Assembly: GCA_018702955.1 (NCBI GenBank)
Contig: JABJEK010000098.1
Location: forward strand, 1-64,000
DNA from: Rhodospirillaceae bacterium
GTDB lineage: Bacteria; Pseudomonadota; Alphaproteobacteria; UBA6615
DNA length: 64,000 nucleotides
Reading direction: 5' to 3'
Below the pieces are notes generated by a model, which saw only the letters and a list, made by a program, of their open reading frames with translations, had not been told where the DNA came from and did not search any database. Both the position numbers and the translations under genes were made by a program. Below, in pieces: positions 10,243-63,813 of the stretch (its first letter is position 1; every line of letters starts with the position of its first letter).

Positions 10243-10692
10243 TCAATCGGTGCCGTCGTCGTCCGCGGATTGAATGGGCTTCGCGAACAGTTCAAGGCGA
10301 TGATCAATGAGCTCATAGCCATGATCGCGGGCGATCTTGGTTTTCAGCGCTTCGATCTCTTCATTGAAAAACTCAATCACCTTGCCGGTCTTCACATCGA
10401 TCAGGTGGTCATGATGATCGTCATGCGCCTCTTCATAGCGCGCCCGGCCATCACCGAAATCATGCTTCTCGAGAATGTTGGCTTCTTCGAACAAGCGTAC
10501 CGTCCGGTAGACCGTGGCAATTGAAATACGCGAATCGAGCTGGGTGGCCCGACGATAGACCTGATCCACGTCGGGGTGATCCTCGGCTTCCGACAGCACG
10601 CGCGCGATCGTCCGGCGTTGCTCGGTCAGCTTGAGTCCACGATCCGTGCACAGCTGCTCGATCCTCGACAACTTGTTCGTGCTCAAATCCAC
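10243..10692 (-). CDS. fur: Fur/Mur-family metalloregulator
   Basis: A 149-residue Fur-family repressor. The N-terminal winged helix is visible (LKLTEQRRTIARVL, then SRISIATVYRTVRLFEEANI as recognition helix). The metal-site motif HDDHHDHLIDVKTG (H93, H94, D95, H96) lacks the CxxC that carries structural zinc in gamma-proteobacterial Fur, as is usual in alphaproteobacterial Fur/Mur. It is not Irr-like (no HHH heme motif). The metal could be iron or manganese. GTG start. Gene order mucR-fur-olsB on the same strand. Confidence 0.88.
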   Translation of the reverse strand: MDLSTNKLSRIEQLCTDRGLKLTEQRRTIARVLSEAEDHPDVDQVYRRATQLDSRISIATVYRTVRLFEEANILEKHDFGDGRARYEEAHDDHHDHLIDVKTGKVIEFFNEEIEALKTKIARDHGYELIDHRLELFAKPIQSADDDGTD

Positions 10693-10790
10693 CCCCGACC
10701 GGTCGACCAGCTATCTGGTTCGGAAATCTTCACCTGCGCAATATAGGCCAAATATCGAGTCACAGCGAACATACCCCCGCAACGCCGGGG

Positions 10791-11195
10791 CTATTTATTG
10801 CCGCGTTTTCCGAGGCCAATCTTTTTCGCCAGCTGGCTACGCTTCTTGGCGTAGTTCGGCGCGACCATGGGGTAATCCGCGGCCAGGCCCCAGCGTTCGC
10901 GATATTGCTCCGGGGTCATGTCATACGAGGTCTTGAGATGCCGCTTCAGCATCTTCAGTTTTTTCCCATCCTCGAGACAGACGATAAAATCCGCCGTCAC
11001 CGACTTTTTGATCGGGACCGCGGGCGATGGACGCTGTTGCGCGCTTGCCGAACCACCGGTGTCGCTAAGGCTGGCATGCACCTGAGCGATCAACTGAGGC
11101 AGATCATTTGCCGGCAGTTTGTTGTTTGACACATGTGCCGCGACTATATCGGCCGTCAACTTCAACAATTCTGCGGAACTAACCTGTTCACTCAT
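10791..11195 (-). CDS. mucR: MucR/Ros-family transcriptional regulator
   Basis: A 134-residue MucR/Ros homologue. The signature runs from CLEDGKKLKMLKRHLK through MTPEQYRERWGL to DYPMVAPNYAKKRSQLAKKI, with a basic C-terminus. Against the Ros zinc finger C-x2-C-x9-H-x4-H, the four positions here are C73, D76, H86 and Y91, so only two canonical ligands remain; some family members bind DNA without zinc. MucR proteins bind AT-rich DNA and repress surface, motility and cell-cycle genes in alphaproteobacteria. A 98 bp gap separates it from fur. Confidence 0.92.
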   Translation of the reverse strand: MSEQVSSAELLKLTADIVAAHVSNNKLPANDLPQLIAQVHASLSDTGGSASAQQRPSPAVPIKKSVTADFIVCLEDGKKLKMLKRHLKTSYDMTPEQYRERWGLAADYPMVAPNYAKKRSQLAKKIGLGKRGNK

Positions 11196-14393: not shown

Positions 14394-15398
14394 CTAGCGT
14401 GATGCAATCGCGTCGAGGTCGAACGGCTCGGTCGACAGTTGCGCGACCTCGAAATCATCAAGCCGATTCGTTGAGATCAACCCGCGCAACGCATCGACAT
14501 ATGCCTCGCGACGTTCGGAGTAGCTGACGAGAGTCTGCGCAAGCTCATGCGCGTTGAGCTGTGTGTCGCGCGCGCGCATCTGTGCGCGGGTAACCCGGTA
14601 ATCCTCATAGGCATAGTGGCGGTTGAGATTGACCACATAGCTGCGGACACTATCGAGCAGGTTGTCGAATGCACGAACCTCGAAACGTTCGCCATCTGCC
14701 CGTTCCTCGGGAACGAACCCGGTGCCCTCGCTCCAGGCGCGCTGACCATAAAGGGCGTTGCCATCCCGCGCGAAGCGAGAGCGGCCCCAGCCGCTTTCCT
14801 CGATGGCCTGGGCCAGCGCCAATGTTGGTGAAACCGTATCCACCCGGCGCAACAGGGCGACAAAATCACCCGGCGCAGCGTCGTATTTGTCCGCGAGCCG
14901 ATCGAGCCAGATCTGGTCCTCTTCCGACAGGTCGCGACCGGACAGGATATGCTCTTCGAGATCAATAAGCTGCCGGCGCTCCAGGCGAACCTCTTCATTC
15001 GCCTTCAAGATCAGCGGGAGGACGGTGCGAATGAAGGTTTGCTTGCGTGCCTCCACGACCATCTGTTCATCGAAATCATCGGGCAGGGATTCAACCAACA
15101 GGCGCGGTACGCGCGAATCGCCGCGCCGGATTTGCCGCAGCGCATATCCGGTTTCATCGAGCACATCGTGTAAGATGTCGGCGGATGCGACCTCGACCAT
15201 ATCGTCATCGATGTCGGCGAATTGCGGGCGCGCGAGCGTAAAATCGACCTGCGGCAGCGCAATCCAATCGAGGGCCGCGCGCGCGGGCTGATCAACCGTA
15301 AATCCAGCCACCGCACCGTACAGCAGAGCTGCGCTAACGGCCGAGACCGTGAAAGCGGTGCGCTTATGTTTACCAAAATTTCGAATAACGCCCCTCAT
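14394..15398 (-). CDS. Bax-like glucosaminidase-domain protein
   Basis: A 334-residue protein with an N-terminal membrane anchor or signal (residues 14-35) and a C-terminal glucosaminidase (GH73-like) domain. The diagnostic stretch is SPTLALAQAIEESGWGRSRF followed by GNALYGQRAW, with the putative catalytic Glu in AIEES; E. coli Bax has the same layout. The middle (about 90-180) is charged and probably helical. It likely hydrolyses peptidoglycan between glucosamine and muramic acid in the periplasm. It converges on the deacetylase gene. Confidence 0.87.
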   Translation of the reverse strand: MRGVIRNFGKHKRTAFTVSAVSAALLYGAVAGFTVDQPARAALDWIALPQVDFTLARPQFADIDDDMVEVASADILHDVLDETGYALRQIRRGDSRVPRLLVESLPDDFDEQMVVEARKQTFIRTVLPLILKANEEVRLERRQLIDLEEHILSGRDLSEEDQIWLDRLADKYDAAPGDFVALLRRVDTVSPTLALAQAIEESGWGRSRFARDGNALYGQRAWSEGTGFVPEERADGERFEVRAFDNLLDSVRSYVVNLNRHYAYEDYRVTRAQMRARDTQLNAHELAQTLVSYSERREAYVDALRGLISTNRLDDFEVAQLSTEPFDLDAIASR

Positions 15399-15525: not shown

Positions 15526-16080
15526 CTATGCGACAGCCTGAACCTCGTCCACTTCCGGCACGTAATGGCGCAGCAGATTCTCAATACCCATCTTCAGGGT
15601 CGCCGTGGAACTCGGGCATCCGGCGCACGCACCCTGCATGGTCAGGAAGACCACGCCATCCTCGAAGCCGTGAAATACAATATCGCCGCCATCCGTCGCC
15701 ACCGCAGGACGCACGCGCGTGTCGAGCAGCTCGACGATCTGTGCGACCACCTCTTTATTCTCACCGTCGTCGACCGCATGCGCCGGGCCCGCGGCCTCGC
15801 GCATCACCGGATCACCCGACGTGTAATGTTCCATGATTGCGCCCAGCACGGCGGGCTTCAGGACCTGCCAATCGGCTTCCGGCGCTTTCGTCACTGTGAC
15901 GAAATCGCTGCCGAGAAATACCGCCGTCACTTCGGGCACCGCGAATAGCCGCAACGCAAGGGGCGACGTATCCGCGCTCTCCCGGTTGGGGAAGTCGGCC
16001 GTGCCTGCGGCGAGCACCTCGCTGCCCGGAAGGAACTTCAGGGTTGCGGGGTTGGGAGTTTCTTCGGTCTGGATAAACAT
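15526..16080 (-). CDS. nfuA: NifU-like Fe-S cluster scaffold (Nfu family)
   Basis: A 184-residue Nfu protein. The N-terminal Nfu_N domain begins MFIQTEETPNPATLKFLPG, as in eukaryotic NFU1 and alphaproteobacterial homologues. The C-terminal NifU domain holds the cluster ligands CAGCPSS (CxxC) after VRPAVATDGGDIVFHGFEDG. It carries 4Fe-4S clusters to target enzymes such as MiaB-type proteins. I chose ATG 16080; the upstream extension to 16152 has no resemblance. It is divergent from the cyclase across a 236 bp gap with repeated GTTAACG boxes. Confidence 0.92.
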   Translation of the reverse strand: MFIQTEETPNPATLKFLPGSEVLAAGTADFPNRESADTSPLALRLFAVPEVTAVFLGSDFVTVTKAPEADWQVLKPAVLGAIMEHYTSGDPVMREAAGPAHAVDDGENKEVVAQIVELLDTRVRPAVATDGGDIVFHGFEDGVVFLTMQGACAGCPSSTATLKMGIENLLRHYVPEVDEVQAVA

Positions 16081-16138: not shown

Positions 16139-16276
16139 GTTAACGAATCCATTCTGGTTCGTTAACGATTTACACGATCCGGGCGTCGTTGAAGAGGGAA
16201 TTTGGGCCGTTTTCCGGAATAATCAAGCCCTGATTTGCGCCCCAGTTGGTTAACGCGAGAGCTCGTTACGGTTAAC
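16139..16276. promoter_or_regulatory. Four GTTAACG boxes in the nfu/cyclase intergenic region
   Basis: The hexamer GTTAAC occurs at 16139, 16161, 16249 and 16271, each followed by G. Spacings are 22, 88 and 22 bp, all multiples of 22 (about two helical turns). The first two boxes form an inverted repeat GTTAACGAA-N10-TTCGTTAAC; the last two are direct repeats GTTAACGCG. A GANTC site (GAATC, 16145) overlaps the first box. The 236 bp gap contains no gene; it should hold promoters for nfu and the cyclase. Confidence 0.65.
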
Positions 16277-16316
16277 GCGACGGCCCTCAAAGTAGCGAAC
16301 ACAGCAAGAACATCCT

Positions 16317-41323: not shown

Positions 41324-42334
41324 CTATCCCGCGAGGTGCGCCGCCACCAGTTCGCCGAGATTGACCTGCGGTCGCGGGCCGACATGGTCGATCACTTCCG
41401 CGGCCGTGATGGCGCCAATCCGCGCGCAGGTCGCCAGGTCACGCCCCCGGGTCAGGCCATACAGAAATCCCGCGGCAAACTGATCCCCGGCGCCCGTCGT
41501 ATCGACCACCTGCGCCACCGGGGCGGCATCAACAACATGAACCTCGTCACCCGACACGACCACGACACCCTTTTCCGATCGCGTGAGTGCTGCAATGCGA
41601 CAATCGTCACGGACATGCTGAAGTGCGGCATCAAAATCCGTGACCTCGTAGAGGGACATGATCTCGTCTTCATTGGCGAAAAGGACATCGACATGGTCTC
41701 GAATGAAACTGCGGAATGAATCCCTGTGCCGGTCGACACAGAAGGGGTCCGACAGGCTGAGTGAGACCAGCCGATTATTCACGGCGGCAAGTGATGCTGC
41801 CTTGAGGAAAGCCGCCTTCGCCTCGTCCCGGTCCCAGAGATAACCCTCGAGATAAGTCACCTGCGCGCGGGCAATCATGTCGGCGTCGATATCATCGGGG
41901 TCCAGGTTAACGCTGGCGCCGAGGAACGTGTTCATGGTGCGCTGGGCATCCGGCGTGATCAGGATCAGACAGCGGGCCGTCGGCGGGCCGTCGGTCGCGG
42001 CCGGGGTCGCAAACTCCGCGCCGACCGCGCGGATGTCATGCGCAAAAATGTCGCCGAGCTGGTCATCGCGAACCTTGCCGATGAATGCGCATTCCGCACC
42101 CAGCGAGGCGAGGCCAGCAGCGGTATTGCCCGCGGATCCACCCGATGTCTCCACCCCCTGGGGCATCGCCGCATACAGCGCCTCGGCCTGATCGGCATCG
42201 ATCAGGGCCATGGTGCCCTTCACCATCCCGTGCTGCTCGATCACGGCATCATCGGTCTGGGCCAGCACATCGACAATCGCGTTGCCGACGCAGACAACAT
42301 CGAGCGCGCGGTCGGCGGCAGTGGAATCGGTCAT
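41324..42334 (-). CDS. PfkB-family carbohydrate/adenosine kinase
   Basis: A ribokinase-fold kinase of 336 residues. Signature 1 is seen as SGGSAGNTAAGLASLGAE and signature 2 as VVDTTGAGDQFAAGFLYGL with the catalytic Asp in GAGD. The N-terminal VVCVGNAIVDVLAQTDDAVIE and overall layout resemble bacterial adenosine-kinase-like PfkB proteins; the exact sugar or nucleoside cannot be fixed. I chose ATG 42334; an upstream extension to 42427 has no homology. It is divergent from the EI24 gene. Confidence 0.88.
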   Translation of the reverse strand: MTDSTAADRALDVVCVGNAIVDVLAQTDDAVIEQHGMVKGTMALIDADQAEALYAAMPQGVETSGGSAGNTAAGLASLGAECAFIGKVRDDQLGDIFAHDIRAVGAEFATPAATDGPPTARCLILITPDAQRTMNTFLGASVNLDPDDIDADMIARAQVTYLEGYLWDRDEAKAAFLKAASLAAVNNRLVSLSLSDPFCVDRHRDSFRSFIRDHVDVLFANEDEIMSLYEVTDFDAALQHVRDDCRIAALTRSEKGVVVVSGDEVHVVDAAPVAQVVDTTGAGDQFAAGFLYGLTRGRDLATCARIGAITAAEVIDHVGPRPQVNLGELVAAHLAG

Positions 42335-63623: not shown

Positions 63624-63813
63624 ATTTCGGGGATCCTGTGAGTAGCCCCTAGTAGGACAAAAAAGGCATAAAAAACAATGGTGTATGGAGGGTAGTTCTA
63701 GTATGGCCTTACCGTGTCTACCCAGTATCCAGGGGCATTTGTTCTTTTTTTGTTCTCGCGCCGGATTTAGCCGGGTATAGTCCGCGGCGAAACGGGTTCG
63801 CAACGAGCGCAAA
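63624..63813 (+). promoter_or_regulatory. Intergenic region with comM promoter elements
   Basis: The 190 bp gap is AT-richer than its surroundings. TTTGTTCT occurs twice, 11 bp apart (63738 and 63749), and TATAGT (63776..63781) could be a -10 box for comM 33 bp upstream of its ATG, though no good -35 is spaced correctly. A long-loop inverted repeat GGGTAG/CTACCC lies near 63695-63723. No gene is seen. Confidence 0.35.

Follow-up and report, generated by a model that had tools for sequence, protein, structure and literature searches.

The window analysed here is a stretch of 64,000 nucleotides from a draft assembly of a Rhodospirillaceae bacterium (3.37 Mb in 145 contigs, 92.8% complete). Within it, the gene for the Fe-S scaffold protein Nfu and a gene for a class III nucleotide cyclase are transcribed divergently, and the region that they share holds four GTTAAC boxes, which are numbered here by position and lettered A to D in the direction of nfu (Table 1). 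Downstream of nfu lies a gene for a Bax-like glucosaminidase, found in the same place at 24 of the 30 nfu loci compared and at 11 of the 12 loci with boxes; nfu and this gene probably form one operon. All the genomes compared are drafts, and the named close relatives are metagenome-assembled genomes (MAGs), such as Rhodospirillaceae bacterium SI072_bin63, whose names suggest a marine habitat.

Table 1. Features of the nfu/cyclase region in the window. Promoter elements and distances from the nfu start site are predicted; fractions refer to the 12 genomes with boxes.
Feature	Sequence or domain	Position	Strand	Remarks
Bax-like glucosaminidase	PF01832 (Pfam); NCBIfam 'bax' below cut-off	14394..15398	-	downstream of nfu
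nfu, Fe-S scaffold	Nfu_N and NifU domains	15526..16080	-	
Box 1 (D)	GTTAAC	16139..16144		centred near +50 from the nfu start site (predicted); exact in 11/12
GANTC site	GAATC	16145..16149		directly adjoins box 1; same position in 3/12
Box 2 (C)	GTTAAC	16161..16166		about +28; forms an inverted repeat with box 1; exact in 7/12, TTAAC in 9/12
Predicted -10 of nfu	AAATTC	16198..16203	-	conserved block, fixed distance from the predicted -35
Predicted -35 of nfu	TTGATT	16221..16226	-	block conserved in 12/12
Box 3 (B)	GTTAACCA, read toward nfu	16249..16254		about -60; exact in 8/12, TTAAC in 10/12
Box 4 (A)	GTTAACC, read toward nfu	16271..16276		about -82; exact in 8/12, TTAAC in 9/12
LexA-like site	GAAC-N7-GAAC; GAACACAGCAAGAAC	16297..16311	+	before the cyclase start codon
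Class III nucleotide cyclase	PF00211	16317..17615	+	divergent from nfu

The four boxes reported by the initial annotation were confirmed in the sequence, the first pair (boxes 1 and 2) as an inverted repeat, GTTAACGAA-N10-TTCGTTAAC, and the second pair (boxes 3 and 4) as a direct repeat in which GTTAACGCG occurs twice. The claim that every spacing is a multiple of 22 bp held for the window's own genome, where successive boxes are 22, 88 and 22 bp apart, but not for its relatives, where the boxes of a pair lie 21 to 23 bp apart (read toward nfu, the distal pair is spaced by 21 or 22 bp and the proximal one by 22 or 23 bp). GTTAAC is palindromic, and each box would be the site of one dimer.

The total number of GTTAAC sequences in the window, 5 compared to 3.2 expected from shuffles, is not unusual because 27 of 100 shuffles reached at least 5; the unusual part is their clustering. 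First-order Markov simulation of the window, repeated 300 times, never gave more than 2 copies in a stretch of 138 bp, whereas the real one contains 4. The fifth copy, at 41906, is inside a sugar-kinase-like reading frame (named from its sequence) and is unrelated to the boxes. A genome-wide count of pairs at 22 bp, proposed earlier as a check, returned GTTAAC-N16-GTTAAC at just these two sites of the assembly and at none in the reversed control, with about 0.008 expected from the shuffle rate. Direct TTAAC pairs on both strands of the same genome were rarer than in the reversed control (22 versus 66); therefore, the cluster does not derive from a general excess of such pairs.

When the cyclase was used to find the neighbouring genes in relatives, 42 of 60 genomes gave a match, mostly to paralogues, and nfu matched in 50 of the 60. 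Thirty nfu loci were fetched, 19 from the family of the window and 11 from other families. Boxes were present at 12 of the 19 family loci, corresponding to every one of the seven g1 genomes (g1 being the genus of the window) and to five of a second genus (g6), of which a sixth genome, G022, had no nfu match and was left unscored. No GTTAAC was detected within 420 bp upstream of nfu at the other seven family loci or at the 11 loci of other families. Over the 48 box positions of the 12 genomes, GTTAAC was exact at 34, and TTAAC, the core of a CtrA half-site, was found at 39.

Alignment of the nfu/cyclase intergenic regions of relatives, the other check proposed with the initial annotation, gave a pairwise identity of 0.88 for the box columns and 0.89 for the block between the pairs described below, compared to 0.49 for the other columns. 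The conservation of the boxes was not matched by any of 14644 randomly drawn sets of four 6-mers. The signal was also detected in the nine genomes without ctrA alone (0.86 in the boxes versus 0.46 elsewhere; reached by 2 of 14611 random sets) and in the five g6 genomes, which also lack ctrA (0.93 versus 0.56; 1 of 14668). The boxes are thus a phylogenetic footprint in the 12 genomes of two genera with a readable nfu locus, which bears out the earlier prediction of real, conserved and roughly helically phased regulator sites.

Between the two pairs, a TTGATT-then-AAATTC block read toward nfu was found with constant spacing in the 12 genomes by searching with loose patterns. A strict scan for consensus promoters reported none at these predicted -35 and -10 elements, which are weak. 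If the block is the nfu promoter, the box centres would fall at the distances given in Table 1. The distance from box B to box C was 88 bp in six of the eight genomes with TTAA in both boxes, 87 bp in G017 and 86 bp in G005; the independent indels are too few for this constancy to prove a loop.

On balance, we find it probable from these comparisons that the four boxes act as an array of operators for the nfu(-bax) promoter and that their regulator is a protein other than CtrA. Two boxes separated by two helical turns would be bound cooperatively, the distal pair from the position of an activator and the proximal pair from that of a road-block, and the two pairs may close a loop of about 88 bp over the promoter, so that nfu would be switched on or off by their occupancy. 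Co-regulation of the cyclase through these boxes is also possible. The promoters of lac and gal, which loop through multiple operators, are similar in that phased operators flank the promoter tens of bp apart; the box and the regulator are different there, and the loop at nfu is hypothetical.

The strongest competitor as a binder of the boxes is CtrA itself. Their cores, TTAACC and TTAACG, equal Caulobacter CtrA half-sites (PMC3751295, table 2; PMC4287350), and in Caulobacter and Sinorhizobium such half-sites can activate or repress according to their position. It is unlikely, though conceivable, that the boxes evolved as a cluster of CtrA half-sites (activator ones at -35/-60, repressor ones downstream), and that they have since become relics or else are occupied by CtrA solely in relatives with a surviving ctrA. 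A GTTAAC pair at 22 bp does precede ctrA in relatives where this gene survives (G004, G006 and G022), and it includes a TTAA-N6-TTAA that resembles the Caulobacter ctrA-P2 site (PMC3751295). In addition, some genomes without ctrA have fewer exact boxes, as expected of a decaying relic (two of four in G001, G002 and G003, one in G005). In contrast, the five g6 genomes, also without ctrA, retain three or four exact boxes, and in this clade the boxes are still constrained as shown above.

The spacing of the boxes also argues against CtrA. The full CtrA site is TTAA-N7-TTAA, whereas the nfu boxes are 21-23 bp apart, and neither TTAA-N6/7-TTAA nor a one-mismatch form of the N7 site was present in any of the 12 nfu intergenic regions. 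The initial annotation had already pointed to a TTAAC core like that of CtrA half-sites but without CtrA spacing, and that description stands.

In the window's genome, only the last ~75 codons of ctrA match (locus L184, contig G000:C9, ~1502-2329), the homology to G006 beginning abruptly, and the adjacent chpT is a pseudogene with an in-frame stop and a deletion. The relay therefore looks dead in this genome, although the ctrA status was read from a draft assembly in which another copy is possible. Of the 24 family genomes, 7 encode a full-length CtrA. Nine box-bearing genomes have no ctrA, as judged from draft MAGs, among them G001, G002, G011 and G020, which are rated 96-100% complete. In a gdhZ tree, the ctrA-bearing G022 falls outside G020, G011 and G023; therefore, one old loss of ctrA is the simplest account for that clade. 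Across the family, the scarcity of full-length ctrA suggests repeated loss of the cell-cycle relay.

As a present-day binder in the window's genome, CtrA was rejected on the grounds of the remnant gene, the chpT pseudogene and the lack of a full CtrA site. Since the boxes persist where CtrA is gone, a different DNA-binding protein probably uses them, in agreement with the initial suggestion of a different regulator.

MucR, an oligomerising H-NS-like silencer of the Ros family that the initial annotation had also named, could bind the four boxes at their TA steps and compete with CtrA where the latter is present, but this appears a long shot. The protein is nearly universal in the family, being encoded in 23 of 24 genomes, those without ctrA included, with two copies in most; one copy, at 10791-11195 in the window, is 5 kb away from the boxes. 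Its targets also contain TA steps, its Caulobacter sites overlap GANTC sites (PMC5172544), and CtrA promoters are co-occupied by MucR (PMC4287350). However, known MucR sites have no consensus and are long AT-rich tracts of 141-217 nt with 74-83% AT (PMC10746212), whereas the nfu/cyclase region has 48-51% AT with 7-10 TA steps and no such tract. Autoregulation of mucR through GTTAAC was rejected, as no pair was found upstream at the 17 readable mucR loci (of 24; seven were not located by the pattern). The linkage of mucR to nfu is that of an ordinary tsaB-rimI-mucR-fur-miaB neighbourhood, which occupies 10243-11195 of the window; in most genomes, the second mucR copy lies elsewhere.

Two further candidates were rejected. 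CenR recognises TGA-N8-TGA (PMC9275681), whereas the conserved boxes are GTTAAC. A CcrM-type GANTC site had also been noted at box 1; GAATC does adjoin the box, but the presumed link to CcrM fell, as only 3 of the 12 genomes have the site at that position. The literature searched for a reader of GTTAAC pairs named none.

The initial annotation had placed its emphasis on the cyclase, and it is improbable that the boxes serve the cyclase promoter (in cAMP or cGMP signalling) with nfu as a bystander. The cyclase is absent in G005 and G017, reduced to a short end in G001 and interrupted by stop codons in G003, and these four genomes retain the boxes, at about unchanged distance from nfu, together with the nfu promoter block. 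Conversely, in four other family members (G012, G014, G016 and G018) the cyclase adjoins nfu and the boxes are absent. Because 4 of the 12 genomes keep boxes after loss of an intact cyclase and four cyclase-bearing relatives have none, nfu is favoured, and the cyclase as sole target was discarded. Judged from gene content, the boxes are tied more closely to the nfu promoter than to the cyclase, and nfu is their more consistent partner. Nevertheless, the boxes are in the shared divergent region, and exact boxes are fewer in the genomes without an intact cyclase (2, 2, 1 and 3 of 4, versus 2-4 with it); the cyclase may therefore share them.

It is very improbable that the first pair, being inverted, acts as a hairpin of the nfu leader RNA and not as a protein site: the pair could fold in the predicted leader, but none of its nine base pairs showed a compensatory change on both sides in the 12 genomes, the three base pairs outside GTTAAC fail in 8-10 of the 12, one-sided changes in box 2 are uncompensated, and the second box pair is direct.

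For the operator array that we prefer, the occurrence of similar pairs elsewhere in the genomes was also analysed. In 13 g1 and g6 genomes, GTTAAC pairs with any gap of 0-30 were at control level (30 versus 28), but gaps of 14-18 held 21 of these 30 pairs compared to 1 of 28 in the reversed control, many of the 21 being orthologous and hence not independent. The pairs with gaps of 14-18 sit at nfu, at gdhZ (NAD-glutamate dehydrogenase) and at ctrA (NF045991). A sequence profile of the pairs, applied to six genomes with 150 of 180-231 first-look candidates scored per genome, gave at least 23 matches; among the matches listed, all but one were at nfu, gdhZ or ctrA, the exception being in G002:C37 (E 0.91), before a membrane-protein frame. 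As the profile was built from the same sites, this result shows just the scarcity of further pairs. In G008:C72 (L134), a direct GTTAACCAT pair at 22 bp was seen at 1983-2010, between genes for an OmpR-type response regulator and a peptide-binding protein.

At gdhZ, the element is CATGGTTAACGAATGCTTGCCGGTGTTAACCATG in four genomes of the genus, with the pair at 20 bp, and two TTAA 20 bp apart were present at 11 of the 16 gdhZ loci read. One box is lost in G005, and the whole element is missing in G008 and G013; it was unreadable at the fetched loci of G016 and G020 (contig edge or partial gene), the latter genome having one on another contig. Upstream of gdhZ (L236-L248), a 34-bp element of high conservation, its ATGGTTAAC/GTTAACCAT arms pointing outward, was observed in four genera of the family. 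A search for the exact gdhZ-type element (ATGGTTAA-N14..18-TTAACCAT) in 385 genomes of the class gave seven matches, three of them the gdhZ of this family; the other four compare to three reversed-control genomes and are therefore attributed to chance outside the family.

Among published motifs, the closest is 'Motif 2' of S. meliloti, TTTGTTAACCAT, an orphan described upstream of 19 genes (PMC3616915). Compared without a weight matrix, it shares the eight letters GTTAACCA with the nfu boxes; its full 12 letters occur without a mismatch in the ctrA upstream region of G022, and TGTTAACCAT is present at gdhZ. As described, Motif 2 is a single motif located at most 40 nt from start sites, and its description does not report pairing or spacing. 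On the basis of this likeness, both motifs may be related.

A broader reading, possible but doubtful, is that an alphaproteobacterial regulator still to be named reads the TTAAC code of CtrA half-sites in the form of GTTAAC pairs spaced by two helical turns. Its core set of targets would be very small (nfu-bax and gdhZ, plus ctrA in genomes that have it); it would outlive CtrA after loss of the relay, and would be the missing reader of Motif 2. If so, TTAACC sites usually credited to CtrA would belong at least partly to another regulator, and motif-based predictions of CtrA regulons would be affected. It would also provide a testable handle on the coordination of Fe-S assembly, a cell-wall hydrolase and glutamate catabolism, the genomes with boxes but without ctrA being a natural way of separating the two readers.

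Apart from the boxes, the LexA-like site before the cyclase start codon (Table 1) was compared in the same genomes. The alphaproteobacterial LexA site is GTTC-N7-GTTC (PMC3323433). The site in the window is kept in place in G000, G002, G003, G004 and G006; G001, G005 and the five g6 genomes do not have it. Another LexA-like repeat, GTTCTTTTTTTGTTC, was seen at 63741-63755 of the window, with no obvious SOS gene adjoining. From the distribution of the first site, the cyclase may be under SOS control in part of the genus.
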